From Kiritimatiellia bacterium (GTDB lineage Bacteria > Verrucomicrobiota > Kiritimatiellia > UBA8416 > JABMPJ01): a DNA stretch of 64,000 bases. Below are positions 8,493 to 56,327 of the stretch, piece after piece. Under the pieces are notes generated by a model. That model had not been told where the DNA came from, did no database searches, and worked only from the letters and a program-made list of their open reading frames with translations. Each line of letters starts with the position of its first letter. Within the stretch, counting starts at the first letter, position 1. The translations under genes and the position numbers were made by a program. Location of the stretch: the NCBI GenBank assembly GCA_030745755.1, contig JASLOA010000010.1, positions 52,583 to 116,582 of the forward strand, given 5' to 3'.

Positions 8493-8786
8493 CTATTTCT
8501 TTTTGGCGGGGAGCACGGCATCCTTGGCTGCCTTGGCGATGCGGAACTTCAGAACCGTCTTCGCCGGAATCTTGATGCTCTCACCCGTGGCCGGGTTGCG
8601 ACCCATGCGAGCCTTGCGGCGTACCTTCACGAGCTTGCCGATTCCGGGAATCGTGAAGCCGTCCTTGGCGCCTTTGTAGGCCAATGCGGCGAGGCTTTCC
8701 AGGAACTCCTTGGCCTGCTTCTTGGTCATGTCGTTCTGGTCGGCGAGCTTTGCGATGATCTGGGTCTTGGTCAGGGCTTTTGCCAT
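8493..8786 (-). CDS. HU family DNA-binding protein
   Basis: MAKALTKTQIIAKLADQ...KDGFTIPGIGKLVKVRRKARMGRNPATGESIKIPAKTVLKFRIAKAAKDAV; start at internal Met rather than the ORF-track start. Confidence 0.95.
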   Translation of the reverse strand: MAKALTKTQIIAKLADQNDMTKKQAKEFLESLAALAYKGAKDGFTIPGIGKLVKVRRKARMGRNPATGESIKIPAKTVLKFRIAKAAKDAVLPAKKK

Positions 8787-30731: not shown

Positions 30732-31559
30732 CTAGTTCGCCATCGCCAGGGCCGGTGTGGCGGGATCGCTCATGGCGATCACGATTTCGCCGGCGCCCAT
30801 GCGACCGAAGTGCGGCGTCTGCCAGCCTGAAGTCTCACGCTTGACGCGGTTGCGGACATAGGCCGCCAGCTTCAGAGCCGAAACACCGCTGTTCCTCCCC
30901 CCGGAGCGGTGGAAGTAGTTGAGGATGTAGCGAGTGAACAGACCATGACCATCGGCTTCGAACGCGCGATCCAACGCACCGCCGGCGGTCAGCATCTGAA
31001 TACTCCGGGAGGAGGTCCAGTCGGTAGAATCTGTGGCAACTGAGATGCCAAACCCTGAGTAGCAGGAATCCATGATGAAGAGGCTGTGGCGGTTCGGCAT
31101 ACGATCGGCGGCGTCGCGCAGCTTCTGCATCGACAGACCGTCATCGGCCTCATGTCCGCGACGGGTCTCTACCGGCAGCAGGTAACCCATCTGGTTGCCG
31201 TTGGCATCGCTGCCGGTCCAGCCGTGGCCCGCGTAGAAGAATACGAACAGATCGTTCTTGCCGATTTCGTCGCCGACTTCCTTAAGAGCAGCTGTGATGT
31301 CATCGCGGCTGGCTTCTTCGTCGGTCAGCAGCAGGACTTTGTCGAATCCGTAGCTCTTGAAAACCTGGGACATCTCAACCGCATCGTTGACCGAGCAGGA
31401 GAGGGGAGCGTAGGAGGGATAGTCGTTGATGCCGACGCAAACGGCGATCCGGCGGCTGTAGGCCTGCCCCGCCGCATGGCTCACGACCGTGGCGGCCAGA
31501 ATGAATGTTGCAGCCGCTGTCAGCGTCCGCCCGATCATGTTGTTGCTTTTGAGTGTCAT
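30732..31559 (-). CDS. Secreted caspase-like protein (peptidase C14 / metacaspase family)
   Basis: Catalytic His (LFVFFYAGHGWTG) and Cys (LFIMDSCYSGFG) motifs; signal peptide (IGRTLTAAATFILAATVVSHAAGQ); start at MTLKSNN because the ORF-track start (31601) lies inside the sigma-54 promoter. Confidence 0.93.
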   Translation of the reverse strand: MTLKSNNMIGRTLTAAATFILAATVVSHAAGQAYSRRIAVCVGINDYPSYAPLSCSVNDAVEMSQVFKSYGFDKVLLLTDEEASRDDITAALKEVGDEIGKNDLFVFFYAGHGWTGSDANGNQMGYLLPVETRRGHEADDGLSMQKLRDAADRMPNRHSLFIMDSCYSGFGISVATDSTDWTSSRSIQMLTAGGALDRAFEADGHGLFTRYILNYFHRSGGRNSGVSALKLAAYVRNRVKRETSGWQTPHFGRMGAGEIVIAMSDPATPALAMAN

Positions 31560-31597: not shown

Positions 31598-31612
31598 GCA
31601 ACGAGCGTGCCA
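31598..31612 (-). promoter_or_regulatory. Sigma-54 (-24/-12) promoter of the caspase-like gene: TGGCACGCTCGTTGC
   Basis: + strand gcaacgagcgtgcca; exact match to TGGCACG-N4-TTGC; 38 nt upstream of the ATG at 31559. Confidence 0.88.
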
Positions 31613-31628
31613 GGATGACTCAAGTTTT

Positions 31629-31658
31629 TATAACGTACTCCTTTATAACTAGTTACAA
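31629..31658 (-). promoter_or_regulatory. Candidate activator box TTGTAACTAGTT..., inverted half-sites TGTAAC-N17-GTTATA
   Basis: 12 nt identical to 54111-54122, same half-site spacing and same distance to the -24 element. Confidence 0.6.
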
Positions 31659-31688
31659 AAAATGGCGCCCCGGAAATACAGGGCGCCA
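31657..31688 (-). terminator. Rho-independent terminator of the upstream regulator gene
   Basis: Minus strand tggcgccctgtatttccggggcgccaTTTTTT: stem plus T-run. Confidence 0.88.
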
Positions 31689-31722
31689 TGCATGTGTAAA
31701 AGCTGTACAGTGTCAAAAAATG

Positions 31723-33156
31723 TTACGGTTGATCTTCCTCCTGCGCGCGCATGTTTTTGAGGTGCCGATTCAGGGTCTGGCGAGTAATGCCGAGGAGCTG
31801 TGAAGCCATGGTCTGGTTGCCATCCGTGCGGCGCAGGGCCTCCTCAATGAGGAGTCGTTCAGCCTGTCGTATCGAGGGCAGGGGCTGATCCGGACTCAGA
31901 AAATCAGGGCTGGGTACGGGAAGTGCGGGTAACTCAGGGACAGATCCCTGTTCGCGAGAGATCGCATCCCTGAATGTGCTCATCGACAGCACGCCGCTCT
32001 TATGGGTGCTGACGGCGTCGTAACACATAGCCTCCAACTCGCGAATATTGCCGGGGAAGCTGTAGGTCGAAAGGAGTGTAACTAATTCAGGCGGCGGCGT
32101 GGGTTTCTTCTTCTTCATCTCCGTGGCCGAGCGCGCCAGGAAATGGTCTAACAGGCGGGGCAGGTCTCCCCGCCGCTCGCGAAGCGGGGGGGCATTAACA
32201 TGGTGGGAGCGCAACCGGAAGTAGAGGTCCTCCCTGAAATCGCCGGACCGCTGCAACGTCTGCAGGTCCCGGTTCGTCGCCACTACAATACGGGCGTTGG
32301 TACGTTTGGCGCTATCGGAACCCAGCGCGAAATACTCTCGCTCCTGCACCAACCTCAGCAGCTTGACCTGCGACATGCTGTTCAGGTCGCCAATTTCGTC
32401 CAGGAAGAGCGTGCCCCCTTCGGCCCGTTCGATCAGGCCTTTACGCACATCCATGGCACCGGTAAAGGCGCCCTTGACGTGGCCGAAGAGCGTGTCGGAG
32501 AAGACGTTGTCATCCAGTCCGGCAATATTGACCGGAATGAACTCGCCGGTCCGCCCGCTGGACTGATGAATGGCCCGCGCGATCAGTTCCTTGCCAACAC
32601 CGGTCTCGCCCGTTACCAGGATGGGCTGGGGGGTGCCGGCGATGGCCTCTATGTACTGGAACAGCGACCGCATACCAGCATCGCTCGTGACAATATCACT
32701 GAATGCATCTGGCTGGGTCAATTCGGTTGAGAGCAGGTGCTGAGTGAGCAAGGCATTCTCGCGGCGCACATCCCGCACATCGAGCGCGCGGCGCAGGCCG
32801 GTGAGCAAGTGCTCTTCCTTGACGGGCTTGACCATGTAATCGAACGCACCGGCGCGCATGCACTTGACAGCCGTATCGACTTCGTCCACGCCGGTCACAA
32901 CGATTACCGGCAAGTCAGGGTGGCGCTGCACAATGCGGGGCAGAACATCCCGGCCGGAGAGGCGGGGCATATTCAGGTCGAGCAACACGGCATCGAATTC
33001 ATGCTCCTTCATAAGCGCATCCACACCGGCGCCATCTTCGCAGGTTATGACATTTGTGATGCCATCGGCACGCAGCGTATAGACGTAGTTGCGGAGCAGA
33101 TCCTTATCATCGTCGACCAGGAGAACGGGATGCACCGGAAAGGCGGGTGTACTCAT
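31723..33156 (-). CDS. Sigma-54-dependent response regulator (NtrC family)
   Basis: Receiver (LLVDDDKDLLRNYVYTLRADG...VLLDLNMPRLSGRDVLP), VTGETGVGKELIARAIH, GAFTGAMD, Fis HTH (TDGNQTMASQLLGITRQTLNRHLKNM). Confidence 0.96.
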   Translation of the reverse strand: MSTPAFPVHPVLLVDDDKDLLRNYVYTLRADGITNVITCEDGAGVDALMKEHEFDAVLLDLNMPRLSGRDVLPRIVQRHPDLPVIVVTGVDEVDTAVKCMRAGAFDYMVKPVKEEHLLTGLRRALDVRDVRRENALLTQHLLSTELTQPDAFSDIVTSDAGMRSLFQYIEAIAGTPQPILVTGETGVGKELIARAIHQSSGRTGEFIPVNIAGLDDNVFSDTLFGHVKGAFTGAMDVRKGLIERAEGGTLFLDEIGDLNSMSQVKLLRLVQEREYFALGSDSAKRTNARIVVATNRDLQTLQRSGDFREDLYFRLRSHHVNAPPLRERRGDLPRLLDHFLARSATEMKKKKPTPPPELVTLLSTYSFPGNIRELEAMCYDAVSTHKSGVLSMSTFRDAISREQGSVPELPALPVPSPDFLSPDQPLPSIRQAERLLIEEALRRTDGNQTMASQLLGITRQTLNRHLKNMRAQEEDQP

Positions 33157-34358
33157 GCCGTCTCTTCCTCGCTACCCCTGGGTACGGGCAGGGCGATGGT
33201 GACCAGTGTGCCGCGACCTCCGGCGGAACTGAAGACCAGTGCACCGCCGTGGGTTTCAACGATCTGCCGCGAGATGGAAAGCCCCAAGCCGGTACCGCCG
33301 GTATCGTGCTTGGTTGTGAAGAAGGGGTCTGTTATCTGGGAAACGGCCTCGGGGGGAATGCCGACACCCTCGTCCTGCACCATGATATGCACCTCGTTAG
33401 CGGCCGGGTTGTAAGCCGTTGAAAGCGAGATGGCACAGTCCTGGTTGGGAACCGCCTGGCAGGCATTGCTGAGAAGGTTGATCACCACCTGTTCAATTCT
33501 TCGTGCCGCACCTTTCACGGGGGGCAGGTCGTCGGCACACGTCACACTGAAGTGATGCGTCGCCTTGCTTATCGTTGAGTTCATCAGCTCGGAAGCGCCC
33601 TGCACCACCGCATTGACGTCAAAGAGGTCGCGCACTTCGCCATCTTCTTTGCGGGCGTAATTCTTCAGATCCGACACCAGCCGGTTGATGCGCTCCGCCG
33701 CGCGGTAACAGGAAGCCACCATCTCCGGTATGTCTTCCCGGATTTCGCTGTAGGGACCGATCCCAAGGTCGAAGTCGCCTTCCTTCTCTTTGTGTTCGTC
33801 CAGAACGGGAAGCAGGTCATCCGTGATGCGGCGGATCGTCTTCAGGCTGAGCAACATGACGTTGTTGGGGTTGCTGACTTCATGGGCCACCCCGGACACC
33901 AGTGTGCCGAGTGCGGCCAGCTTCTGGGCCTGAACCAGTTGAGCCTCGGCGCGCTTGTGCTCCGTGATGTCCTGGCGGATCACGATGGCGCCGTGCGTGA
34001 ACGGCGCCAGGGTGTACGCGAAGATATGCCCGCCCGAGCGTACATCAGATACTTCGCGCACCACGTTCTGTTCGAGCGTCTTCTTCAGTTCGCTCTTCAT
34101 GATGATGTCGCACTCGGAGTCGCCGGAAAAAAGAACACGCCCGAGCTCCGGCAGGGAGTCGTGGGCATGACGGCGCGCCAGGTTGCTCTTCACCACTTTG
34201 CCTTCACGGTCCACCACGGTGATGGCGGAAGGGTTATGCTGGAAGAGGGCGAAGTTGAATGCTTCCTTTTCATGGCATTCGCGCAGCACGTTGCCCAGGT
34301 CACGGCGGTCACTGCTCTCGTTGTTCCCGTTGTCGTCTGTCATGTCGGTGCACTCCAT
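33153..34358 (-). CDS. PAS-domain sensor histidine kinase partnered with the downstream regulator
   Basis: VSGVAHEVSNPNNVMLLSLKTIRR H-box; NLLSNACQAVPNQ...DEGVGIPPEAVSQITDPFFTTKHDTGGTGLGLSISRQIVETHGG; 4-nt overlap with regulator gene. Confidence 0.95.
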   Translation of the reverse strand: MECTDMTDDNGNNESSDRRDLGNVLRECHEKEAFNFALFQHNPSAITVVDREGKVVKSNLARRHAHDSLPELGRVLFSGDSECDIIMKSELKKTLEQNVVREVSDVRSGGHIFAYTLAPFTHGAIVIRQDITEHKRAEAQLVQAQKLAALGTLVSGVAHEVSNPNNVMLLSLKTIRRITDDLLPVLDEHKEKEGDFDLGIGPYSEIREDIPEMVASCYRAAERINRLVSDLKNYARKEDGEVRDLFDVNAVVQGASELMNSTISKATHHFSVTCADDLPPVKGAARRIEQVVINLLSNACQAVPNQDCAISLSTAYNPAANEVHIMVQDEGVGIPPEAVSQITDPFFTTKHDTGGTGLGLSISRQIVETHGGALVFSSAGGRGTLVTIALPVPRGSEEETA

Positions 34359-50644: not shown

Positions 50645-51115
50645 ATGGCCGGTGGATTGATTGTTTTCGTGTGCACAGGCAACGTATGTCGCAGTCCCAT
50701 GGCCGAATACCTCCTGCGCGCCCATCCGGAACTTGGTGCGGGCTGGGACGTGTGTTCCGCCGGCCTGGCGGCCGTGTTTGGTGTTCCGGCCAGCCACGAG
50801 GCGGTGGGCGTAATGCGTGAGAAGGGCATAGATATCAGGGCCCATTGCAGTCGTCCGTTGAGCGCCGAGCTGGTGGCGGCGGCTGAGCTGGTGGTGGTGA
50901 TGACCGCCGATCATAGCCGGATGATGGACCTGCTCTACCCGGAGGCCATGGACAAGGTCCGCCTCCTGAAGTCGTTTGATGAAGGCGCAAAGAGACTGGA
51001 TCTGCGCGATCCGATTGGAATGTCGCATGATGTCTATCGCGGCATAAGAAAAGAAATTGAACAGGCCCTGCCGGGGCTGTTGGCATGTCTGGAAGATAGG
51101 ACAAAATCAAGATGA
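50645..51115 (+). CDS. Low-molecular-weight protein (tyrosine/arginine) phosphatase
   Basis: [21 protein letters not shown]-loop; C-terminal DLRDPIG; position between tsaC and rpiB. Confidence 0.93.
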
Positions 51116-52794
51116 AGATCCTTATGGGTTCAGATCACGGCGGCTTTGCCATCAAAGAAGTGGTGATGAAGGCGCTCGACGAGCGGGGCATCGAAGTGGA
51201 AGACATGGGCTGCCACGATACCGAATCGGTCGACTACTCAGACTATGCTGCAGCCGTGTCGTCGCGTATTGCGGCGGGCGATGCAGACCAGGGCGTGCTG
51301 GTGTGTACGACCGGTCTTGGGATGACCATCGCGGCCAACAAGTATCCACGTGTGCGCGCGGCGCTCTGCATGACGCCGGAAATGGCGGAGAAGGCTCGTG
51401 AGCATAACAATGCCAACGTGCTGGTACTCGGTGGCGGACTGATCTCCGAAGCGGAAGCTGAGGCTATCCTGGAAAAGTGGCTGACCACGCCCTTCTCGAA
51501 CAACGAGCGGCATGCCCGCCGCATTGAGAAATTTTCGTCGAGCCGTGTGACTGAAACCGAAACGGCCGGACTTTACGATGCCGATCCGGAAGCCTGGTCC
51601 ATCACGCAGGCTGAAGTCCTGCGCCAGCAGAAGACGCTCGATCTGATTGCCTCCGAGAACCACGTCAGCCGGGCGGTACGCGAGGCCCAGGGCTCTGTCA
51701 TGACCAACAAGTACGCCGAGGGGTATCCCCGCAAGCGCTGGTACAACGGCTGCAAACACGTCGATGAGATCGAGCAGCTTGCGATCGACCGCGCCAGGGA
51801 ACTGTTCGGTTGTGATCACGTCAACGTGCAGCCACACTGCGGCAGCGCGGCCAACATGGCGGTCTACTTCGCGGCCCTCGAGCCGGGCGATACGATCCTG
51901 GCGATGAGCCTGGCATGTGGCGGGCACCTGACGCACGGCAGCCCGGTCAATTTCTCAGGTCGTCTCTTCAATATGGTGCACTATGGCGTCTCCAAGGAGA
52001 CCCAGGTGATCGATTACGACGAAATCGAGGCCCTGGCCAAAGAACATCAGCCCAAGATGATCGTGGCCGGCGCCAGCGCCTATCCGCGCATTCTCGACTT
52101 CCCGCGGTTCCGCGAGATCGCCGATTCCGTCGGAGCCATGTTGACCGTCGACATGGCGCACATCGCCGGACTCGTCGCGGCCGGTGTTCATCCCAGCCCG
52201 GTGCCCTATAGCGATTTCGTTACCACCACGACACACAAGACGCTGCGCGGACCGCGCAGCGGCATGATCCTCTGTCGCAAAGCCTACGCGGCCGACGTCG
52301 ACAAACAGGTCTTCCCCGGGATGCAAGGCGGTCCCCAAATGCATTCCATAGCGGCCAAGGCCGTTTGCTTCAAGGAGGCCCTGGATCCCGCTTTCAAGGC
52401 ATACGCGCAGCGGGTCGTGGATAACGCAGCCGTTCTGGCGACGGAGCTTCAGGCGGACGGACTCCAGCTCGTCTCCGGCGGTACGGATAACCACCTGATG
52501 CTGGTGGATCTCAATCCGATCGGCCTGACCGGCAAAGACGCCGCCAATGCGCTTGAGAAAGCCGGCATCGTGCTCAACAAGAACTCGATCCCCTTCGACA
52601 CCAAGAGCCCGTTTGTCACCTCCGGTATCCGCATCGGTACAGCGGCATTAACAACGCGTGGCATGGGCGAGGTCCAAATGAAGGCTCTGGCAGAACTGAT
52701 AAGTCGCGTCCTCAAAGCCCACGAAGACGAGGCCGTGCTCGCCGACGTCCGCCTCCGCGCGGAAACCCTCGCGGCCGCCTTCCCCGTGCCGTGA
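51112..52794 (+). CDS. Fusion protein: ribose-5-phosphate isomerase B (N-term) + serine hydroxymethyltransferase (C-term)
   Basis: Rpi[17 protein letters not shown]...[24 protein letters not shown]...[22 protein letters not shown]; Gly[52 protein letters not shown]...[18 protein letters not shown]; single uninterrupted ORF. Confidence 0.96.
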
Positions 52795-53957
52795 GCGCGC
52801 TCTCCCAGCCAGACGTTCCGCCCCTGCGCGTGCTCGCGCTGGAGGCATACTATGGCGGGAGCCATAAGGCGTTTTTGGACGGGTGGATGGCGCGCAGTCG
52901 GCACGAGTGGACGCTGTTGAGTCTGCCCGACTCAAAATGGAAATGGCGGATGCGCCATGCCGGTGTCACGTTTGCCGAGCAAGTCAGCGAGGCCGTGGAC
53001 GAGGGTGAAGCGTGGGATGTGATCTTCACGTCCGACATGCTCTCGCTGGCCGACTTCCGGGGATTGGCTCCGAAGGCAGTGCGTGATCTGCCTGCCGTAG
53101 CCTACTTTCACGAGAACCAGCTCACCTATCCGGTGCGCGAAGAGAGTGAACGCGACTACCATTTCGTTTTCTCCAATCTGACCACCGCCCTTTCTGCCGA
53201 GTCCGTCTGGTTTAACTCCGCGTTTCATCGTGACGAGTTTCTGGAAGCTGCCACGGCATTCATCAAGCGCATGCCCGACTTCAAGATTCTGAGTGCCGTG
53301 GACGCGATTCGCGCCAAGAGCGCCGTGCATCCCCCTTGTATCGACGCGACAGAGGCCCCCGCCGACCGATCCGGCGGCCCGCTTCACATCCTCTGGGTCG
53401 CGCGGTGGGAATTCGATAAGTGCCCCGAACGGTTCTTTGCGGCGCTGGATCTGCTGGCCCAACAGGGCACCGACTTCCGCATCAGTGTGTTGGGTGGCGA
53501 AGCCGGGCGGTCTCCGCTGCCGGTATTCAAGCAGGCCCGCCAACATTTCGCCGACCGGATCCTGCACTGGGGCTACCAGGAATCACGCGCCGCCTACGAA
53601 CAAGTGCTCAGTGAAGTCGATGTCGTGGTCTCAACCGCCGACCACGAGTTCTTCGGCATCGGCATCCTCGAAGCAGCAGCAGCCGGCGCATTCCCGCTGG
53701 TTCCGCGCCGCCTCGCCTACCCCGAAGTACTCATCGATAGCGACATGCCCGGCTGCGACTCCTTCTTCTATGACGGCGACGAACACGCTCTCTGCGGCCG
53801 CCTGGCCACCCTCGCCGCCCGCAAAGAACACGGCGACCTCTGGCAAGCCCACCCAAACCGTGCCCGCCAAGCCGCCGACCGCTACACCCCAACGGCCCTC
53901 ATCCCCGCCCGCGATACCGCGCTCTCCTCGCTCATCTCGTCTGAAGAGCCGAGGTAG
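52791..53957 (+). CDS. DUF3524 glycosyltransferase (tRNA-queuosine alpha-mannosyltransferase-like)
   Basis: [49 protein letters not shown] matches the DUF3524 N-terminal signature; GTG start overlaps the glyA stop. Confidence 0.85.
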
Positions 53958-53990: not shown

Positions 53991-54110
53991 TACCTGCCTT
54001 AGCGAGAACTCTCTGCCCGGAGTCAACACAATACATAATTGTAATTGCGCGCGAGGCCTATGATACACTATTGTCATATATGTTGTTCAGAGGGGTGGTT
54101 CTCTATATGG

Positions 54111-54140
54111 TTGTAACTAGTTGATTAGGTATGGGTTACA
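54111..54140 (+). promoter_or_regulatory. Candidate activator box TTGTAACTAGTT..., inverted half-sites TGTAAC-N17-GTTACA
   Basis: Shared with 31629-31658 at identical spacing from the sigma-54 promoter. Confidence 0.62.
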
Positions 54141-54156
54141 CTTCTATTGGTCCTGT

Positions 54157-54171
54157 TGGCACGGGGATTGC
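54157..54171 (+). promoter_or_regulatory. Sigma-54 (-24/-12) promoter of the glutamine synthetase gene: TGGCACGGGGATTGC
   Basis: Exact match to TGGCACG-N4-TTGC, about 100 nt upstream of the ATG at 54270. Confidence 0.88.
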
Positions 54172-54269: not shown

Positions 54270-56327
54270 ATGAGCGTATTGGACTTTTATGGTGAGAACG
54301 TGTTCAGCATCAAGACGATGCGGAGTTATCTGTCGGAGACGGCTTACGAGTCGCTGACTAAGATGATTACCGAAGGCGCAACAGTGGATCCGTCGATTTC
54401 GGACGAAGTGGCTGACGCGATGAAGACCTGGGCCATGGAGAAGGGCGCGACCCACTACACGCACTGGTTCCAGCCCCTGACGGGCGCTACTGCCGAGAAG
54501 CACGATTCGTTCGTGACGCCTGATCATGAAGGCGGCGCGATGTGCCAGTTCTCCGGCAAAGAACTGATCCAGGGCGAGCCGGATGCCTCCAGTTTTCCGT
54601 CGGGCGGTCTCCGCGCCACGTTCGAAGCGCGCGGTTACACGGGGTGGGACCCCAGCAGTCCTGCCTTTCTTAAGGAAACGGACAATGGGGCCACACTCTG
54701 CATTCCCACGATCTTCTGTGGATACCACGGCGAGGCGCTCGACAAGAAGACGCCGTTGCTGCGTTCCATGGCGGCGCTGTCGACGCAGGTTTGCCGCCTC
54801 GGCAAGCTGTTCGGTATTGAAGGCAGCGGTCGTGCCTACGCGACGCTGGGTTCGGAGCAGGAGTACTTCCTGATCGATAAGGACTTCTACCTCGATCGCC
54901 TGGACTTGATCCAGACCGGCCGCACGCTGTTCGGTCGTGAGCCGGCCAAGCATCAGCAGATGGACGACCATTACTTCGGTGCGATCAAGCGTCGCGTCAT
55001 GGAGTTCATGTCGGATCTGGATGCCGAACTCTGGCGCCTGGGCGTGCCGGCCAAGACGCGCCACAACGAGGTGTCACCGGCGCAGTTTGAATTGGCCCCG
55101 ATGTTTGAGGAACTGAACCTGGCGGTTGACCACAACATGATCACGATGGAGGTCATGCGCGATGTAGCTGACCGGCACGGGTTTGCCTGTCTCCTCCATG
55201 AGAAGCCCTTCGCCGGCGTGAATGGTTCCGGCAAGCACAACAACTGGGCGGTAGCCGGTCCGGATGGCAAGAACTGGCTGACTCCGGGTGACAACCCGCA
55301 TGAGAACGCGAAGTTTATGACCATGATCTGTGCCTTGATCAAGGCCGTGGATGAGCATGCCGACCTGTTGCGTTCATCTGTGCAGGGCGCGGGCAACGAT
55401 CATCGGCTGGGCGCGAACGAGGCCCCGCCGGCCATCATCTCGATCTTCCTGGGCGAGCAACTCGCGGACGTGATCGAGCAGATTGAGGCCGGTGGCGCAA
55501 AGAGTTCGACGGACGGCGGCAAGATCGAGATCGGCGTTAGCCATCTTCCTGATCTGCCGCGTGACGCGACTGACCGTAACCGGACCTCGCCGTTCGCCTT
55601 CACGGGGAACAAGTTCGAGTTCCGCGCGGTGGGGTCGAGTCAGAGCTGTGCCGGCGCCAACATCGTGATGAACACGATTGTGGCCGATGCGCTCGACTTC
55701 ATCTGCACTAAGCTCGAAGCGGCCGATGGTGACTTCAATGATGCCCTGCAGGGCGTACTGGCCGATATCATCAAGACGCACAAGCGCGTGCTCTTCAACG
55801 GTGACAACTACACCGCGGAATGGCACGCCGAGGCGGAGAAGCGCGGGCTGCCGAACCTGCGCACGACGCCGGATGCGCTTGAGGTGATGAAGACGGAGAA
55901 GACGGCGAAGCTGTTCGAGAAGCACGGCGTGCTCACCGCGCGTGAACTGGAGTCGCGTTTCGAGGTCTACCACGAGACGTACGAAACCATGATCGGCATC
56001 GAGGCGAGTTGCGCGCTCACGATCGCGAAGACGATGATCGCGCCTGCGGCCCTGGAGTACCAGGCTGAGCTGGCCGAGACGGTCGAGAAGGTCACTGCCG
56101 CCGGCGCATCCGCTGAGGCGGCAAAGAGTACGCTCGTGGCCGTGTCCACCGAAGCGGACAAACTGTGTAGGAATATCGGAGAGCTGGAAGCGGCTCTTGG
56201 AGATGCTGCGAAGTCGATCGCGGTTATGGGCGAATTGCGCGCCGCGGCGGACGAACTGGAAGGCCTGGTGCCGTACGATGCATGGCCGCTGCCTTCCTAC
56301 GCGGAAATGCTGTTTGTGCTTCAGTAG
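54270..56327 (+). CDS. glnN: Glutamine synthetase type III (GlnN-type)
   Basis: ~700 aa size class; [23 protein letters not shown]-like motif; [47 protein letters not shown]. Confidence 0.97.

Follow-up and report, generated by a model that had tools for sequence, protein, structure and literature searches.

Two sigma-54 (-24/-12) promoters in the window, the whole stretch of 64,000 nucleotides that was analysed, carry the same palindromic box at the same distance upstream of the -24 element: one lies ahead of glnN, the other ahead of a caspase-domain gene. Does the shared box mark a regulon that joins nitrogen assimilation to a metacaspase, or does it serve a purpose common to both promoters? 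The sequence comparisons favour the latter. With a probability of about 0.8, the box is where a bending protein of the HU/IHF (DNABII) family binds, a palindromic site generic to many sigma-54 promoters of the phylum and not the signature of a single glnN-caspase regulon.

The two promoters and their orthologues

The glnN locus, on the plus strand, contains the following features:
54032..54043, plus strand: putative enhancer dyad 1, TACATAATTGTA, for a nitrogen-specific enhancer-binding protein; kept in 5/5 genus glnN promoters
54064..54075, plus strand: putative enhancer dyad 2, TACACTATTGTC, 32 bp downstream of dyad 1; conserved block in the five-genome alignment
54112..54140, plus strand: glnN box, symmetric IHF/HU-type candidate site TGTAACTAGTTGATTAGGTATGGGTTACA; from sequence, alignment and consensus match
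54157..54171, plus strand: sigma-54 (-24/-12) promoter of glnN, TGGCACGGGGATTGC; from sequence, kept in 5/5 genus genomes
54270..56327, plus strand: glnN, glutamine synthetase type III, 685 aa; Pfam GSIII_N, Gln-synt_C and Gln-synt_C-ter

Further upstream, an RpiB-type isomerase domain is fused to serine hydroxymethyltransferase in one reading frame (window 51112-52794, Pfam), and window 52791-53957 encodes a homologue of tRNA-queuosine alpha-mannosyltransferase (QTMAN_N, Pfam 5.6e-60), an enzyme known mainly from animals.

The caspase locus lies on the minus strand:
30732..31559, minus strand: caspase-domain (metacaspase-like) protein with a probable signal peptide, 275 aa; Pfam Peptidase_C14, 5e-19
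31598..31612, minus strand: sigma-54 (-24/-12) promoter of the caspase gene, TGGCACGCTCGTTGC; from sequence, conserved in orthologues
31629..31657, minus strand: caspase box, symmetric IHF/HU-type candidate site TGTAACTAGTTATAAAGGAGTACGTTATA; from sequence, alignment and consensus match
31657..31688, minus strand: intrinsic terminator of the upstream two-component operon, TGGCGCCC...GGGGCGCCA TTTTTT; from sequence, inverted repeat mostly kept in relatives
31690..31720, minus strand: conserved block TTTTTTGACACTGTAC-N3-TTTTACACATGC, between the regulator gene and its terminator, a candidate caspase enhancer (presumed function); 5/5 genus genomes
31723..33156, minus strand: NtrC-family response regulator with receiver, sigma-54 activation domain and Fis-type HTH; Pfam
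33153..34358, minus strand: sensor histidine kinase, partner of the response regulator; Pfam HisKA and HATPase_c

Both promoters fit the sigma-54 pattern TGGCAC-N5-TTGC, with GG and GC 10 bp apart and the element placed ahead of a gene. Upstream of glnN, a 12-mer, TTGTAACTAGTT, occupies 54111-54122 and the dyad TGTAAC-N17-GTTACA occupies 54112-54140; on the minus strand, the same 12-mer begins at 31658 in the caspase promoter region and the dyad TGTAAC-N17-GTTATA runs from 31657 to 31629. The gap between box and promoter is 16 nt in both cases, which confirms the matching box and equal spacing described in the sequence-only reading. The genome-wide tests are pattern searches. In the 3.07-Mb genome, the 11-mer pattern TGTAACTAGTT-N{10,20}-GTTAYA occurs in two places only, the glnN and caspase promoters, and the 11-mer with a second arm is absent from all 56 relatives searched. 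Taken alone, this literal search would imply that relatives lack the box, an implication overturned by the aligned orthologous promoters, in which the arms are conserved.

Orthologues of both genes are present in four other genomes of the genus (glnN with 88-92% and the caspase with 82-90% identity). The dyad, in the form TRTAAN-N17-NTTAYA and with a few degenerate copies, is found in 5/5 glnN and 5/5 caspase promoters, 16 nt from the -24 element except in one glnN promoter (genome G003, 15 nt). All ten orthologous promoters retain the -24/-12 element, with TTGC or CTGC at -12. In one species both glnN arms have changed together relative to the window (TGTAAG...CTTACA). The twelve identical nucleotides that first drew attention survive only in part: the dyad arms are kept in the four other species, but the TAGTT core is not. 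Because the orthologous promoters keep the dyad and lose this core, the dyad is, judging from the alignments, real and selected, and the 12-nt identity partly accidental.

The sequences further upstream differ between the two genes. In the five-genome alignment of the glnN upstream region, conservation covers the tandem TACA-N4-TGTA dyads, lapses between these dyads and the box, and returns at box and promoter. Across the class, most sigma-54 promoters of amtB and outer-membrane-protein genes have such dyads upstream; none was found at the promoters of caspase, clpB, hsp20 or pilin genes, and ten dnaK promoters yielded a single copy, in an atypical place. The tandem dyads are probably enhancers of the nitrogen regulon. 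Caspase promoters carry instead a conserved block, TTTGACAC-YGTAC (31720-31690), and the 3' end of the response regulator gene precedes the caspase gene in all five genus genomes; this regulator is likely the activator of the adjacent caspase promoter. Specificity thus appears to reside further upstream, where elements differ between nitrogen genes, dnaK and the caspase, the box being the common candidate bend site. The resulting arrangement appears classical, with regulon-specific enhancers, a bend site and a sigma-54 promoter in succession. At the caspase locus no gap separates the two-component operon's terminator from the candidate bend site, the one stopping just where the first letters of the other stand; because the box abuts the terminator T-run, its leading Ts belong also to the terminator.

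Distribution of the dyad among sigma-54 promoters

The genus test set consists of the sigma-54-like sites of five genus genomes, with 80 nt upstream of each, plus a few order-level sites found via the dyad. In this set, 14 dyads that match at 9 or more of the 10 arm positions have an arm spacing of 17, against 0-4 at each of the other spacings from 12 to 23, and the genus-set dyads are located 15-16 or 27-29 nt from the -24 element. Held-out data give the same peak: among 145 class-level sites outside the genus, the cell with spacing 17 and distance 16 collects 12 matches at a threshold of 8, and the other cells at most 6. Across the class, the dyad lies 16 nt from -24 or about one helical turn further out (26-29 nt), the latter position being that of the genus dnaK dyad (27-28 nt). 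The genes behind dyad-bearing sites include glnN, the caspase gene, amtB (in several families), dnaK, clpB, hsp20, thioredoxin and an outer-membrane protein. At the sigma-54 pilin promoters of three genus genomes (L222, L224 and L225) the dyad was not found, so that sigma-54 transcription in this clade can do without the box.

A search of the five genus genomes for the exact full motif, TRYAA-N4-YT-N7-AR-N4-TTRYR (or, with a fixed final A, TTRYA), gives 12 sites, against one for the reversed control. At 10 of these 12 sites a -24/-12 element follows 15-27 nt downstream, a result that bears out the box in the scan for proximity to such elements that the sequence-only reading had proposed. At the level of the phylum (390 genomes), the motif, allowing two mismatches and placed 16 nt from -24, gives about 197 matches, against 14 for the reversed pattern, a control that tests box and promoter jointly, the position of the box being tested in the genus set and the held-out class set. 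Some of the pattern matches are probably due to chance.

In at least 10 genomes of several families, dnaK lies behind a near-consensus sigma-54 promoter (TGGCACGGGCATTGC type) with upstream dyads of its own, such as GCGACATATTGTCGC (G000:C27:30464 (L008), L217, L218, L219, L189, L191, L200, L202, L203 and L205). Near-consensus sigma-54 promoters also precede clpB (L214) and hsp20 (L206). A sigma-54 heat-shock regulon would be unusual.

Inner structure of the box and its candidate ligand

In 43 aligned copies, the inner letters that had played no part in selection are strongly conserved, namely Y10 (39/43), T11 (38/43), A19 (40/43) and R20 (39/43), and they are symmetric about position 15. The unselected centre is close to GATWATC, and the full motif contains the IHF consensus, WATCARNNNNTTR (PMC3897727, PMC7962754, PMC9519438), in both orientations. 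A distance of 9 bp separates the conserved YT (10|11) and AR (19|20) steps, equal to that between the two kinks introduced by IHF (PMC9519438). Information appears to be carried by the dyad arms and these inner steps only. The centre was also evaluated in the phylum, in the 82 listed matches outside the class with intact GG and GC, where selection had not touched the seven letters of the centre: 46 of the 82 have a half-site that agrees with WATCARNNNNTTR at 8 or more of its 9 positions, compared with 15.8 +/- 3.4 (maximum 27) in 2000 shuffles of the seven centre letters. Agreement varies between copies. The left half of the glnN box reads AATCAACTAGTTA on the minus strand and matches WATCARNNNNTTR at 9/9 positions, the caspase halves match at 7/9 and 6/9, and the C of WATCAR is weak both in the aligned copies (14/43) and in the phylum sites (25/82). 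The outer arms (TRY, RYA) reach beyond the classical IHF consensus. Two other identities for the box, an everted TACA-N4-TGTA enhancer and a GlnR/TnrA-type site, were dropped as unfit in spacing and inner letters.

Three DNABII genes are present in the genome (G000, assembly 92% complete). Two encode HU-like paralogues that score far below the NCBIfam cut-offs for IHF-alpha and IHF-beta; one lies in the window (8493-8786, minus strand), the other at G000:C8:76017-76277, and both carry an unusual IPGxGKL segment (IPGIGKL in the window copy, where IHF-beta has IEIRGFG). The third gene (G000:C8:87055-87324, minus strand) encodes HIELREFGVF, the E and R of which align with the E-x-R of IHF-beta, presumably its E44 and R46. 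In IHF-beta this motif includes residues that read TTR. Proteins of the DNABII family that bear IE[LF]R[ED]FG or a close variant occur in eight genomes: four of the five from the genus, and four more elsewhere in the order. Its E-x-R motif makes the third DNABII protein the likely ligand of the box, probably as a homodimer; with E-x-R in both subunits, such a homodimer would explain why the consensus is present in both halves of the site. Motif, position, symmetry and breadth of the box are computed, and we infer the identity of the protein, its homodimeric state, the bending and the effect on transcription.

Mechanism, alternatives and known systems

Counting from the -24 element, the box would span roughly -71 to -43, with the gene-specific enhancers on one side of it and the sigma-54 promoter on the other. 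A bend at this point would bring the activator, bound at its enhancer, up against the sigma-54 holoenzyme, with glnN and the caspase gene each answering to its own activator. Of the three roles that the sequence-only reading had considered (activator, repressor or architectural site), the architectural one fits a candidate bending site.

Alternatively, the box may bind a dedicated, clade-specific co-factor of sigma-54, not of the HU/IHF type, that touches the holoenzyme directly, its likeness to an IHF site being convergent. The spacing to -24 is rigid across class and phylum (16 nt or one turn more), tighter than bending alone seems to need, and the symmetry of the box, where classical IHF sites are asymmetric, would suit a dedicated dimeric regulator. 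This explanation is nevertheless improbable: the unselected centre letters form a symmetric IHF consensus with steps 9 bp apart, an IHF-beta-like DNABII protein is present in the genome, and no candidate for the co-factor was found.

Very unlikely is an operator for one dimeric factor, of the NtrC family or another, that co-regulates glnN and the caspase gene and couples nitrogen status to the metacaspase. The two boxes are strongly alike, share their position and are kept in five species, and the gene just ahead of the caspase gene encodes an NtrC-family response regulator. One dimeric protein, as had been proposed, probably does occupy both sites, but the same dyad stands at many unrelated promoters (amtB, dnaK, clpB, hsp20, thioredoxin and outer-membrane protein) and throughout the phylum, with differing elements further upstream, and the nitrogen-metacaspase link is left unsupported. 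Moreover, glnN has conserved tandem enhancer dyads of its own at the classical distance, which the caspase promoter does not have, and the inner structure of the box matches the IHF consensus. Removing this seeming connection of nitrogen metabolism with a bacterial caspase matters, as it would otherwise have been pursued. Finally, a coincidental likeness of AT-rich sequence near promoters, such as an UP element, is hardly credible: the region is AT-rich and the 12-nt identity is itself not conserved, but the held-out class data peak sharply at one spacing and one distance, 10 of the 12 exact motif sites of the genus genomes stand beside sigma-54 promoters, and the motif far outnumbers its reversed pattern in the phylum.

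If the box is a palindromic DNABII site, a further step may be considered tentatively. The sigma-54 promoter of the phylum could be a composite, in which a homodimeric IHF-like palindrome at fixed helical phase to -24 makes bender and holoenzyme one unit, possibly touching, for regulons as unrelated as nitrogen, heat shock and the caspase. Since the rigid spacing is tighter than bending seems to need, direct contact with the holoenzyme is possible.

IHF sites between enhancer and sigma-54 promoter are known from nif, glnH, psp and Pu. To our knowledge, none of the classical sites has such rigid spacing. Others have been described in Desulfovibrio, at the orp promoters (at -42/-43 and -79, PMC3897727), and in Geobacter (PMC7962754). 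The box resembles these sites in its place in the promoter, in the consensus WATCARNNNNTTR and in the proposed role of bridging activator and holoenzyme. Classical IHF is an IhfA/IhfB heterodimer. In its sites the consensus occupies a single side, frequently with an A-tract opposite (PMC9519438). In contrast, both halves of the box are conserved symmetrically, with the consensus in each, as one 29-bp palindrome, and it stands at one or two fixed distances from -24 over nitrogen, heat-shock and other sigma-54 genes of the phylum. Like NtrC enhancers, the box is palindromic and upstream of -24/-12 promoters of nitrogen genes; unlike them, it lies nearer the promoter, differs in half-site and spacing, and is common to nitrogen, heat-shock and caspase promoters where an NtrC-type enhancer is a regulon-specific upstream dyad. 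At glnN the enhancer role would be filled by the TACA-N4-TGTA dyads at 54032-54075.

A non-exhaustive literature search found no direct precedent for symmetric or homodimeric IHF sites, or for sigma-54 studies in Verrucomicrobiota. Sequence preference is also a property of two homodimeric members of the HU family, TF1 of phage SPO1 and Hbb of Borrelia, neither of which is tied to sigma-54 promoters. The likeness to them is that a homodimeric DNABII protein, the ligand proposed here, would call for a symmetric site. What is known of the help that IHF gives to sigma-54 promoters comes mainly from Proteobacteria, where the site is asymmetric and loosely positioned. Over a whole, largely uncultured phylum, a symmetric site at one or two fixed distances would provide a sequence handle for predicting sigma-54 regulons there; it also predicts a homodimeric IHF and raises the question of whether bender and holoenzyme touch.
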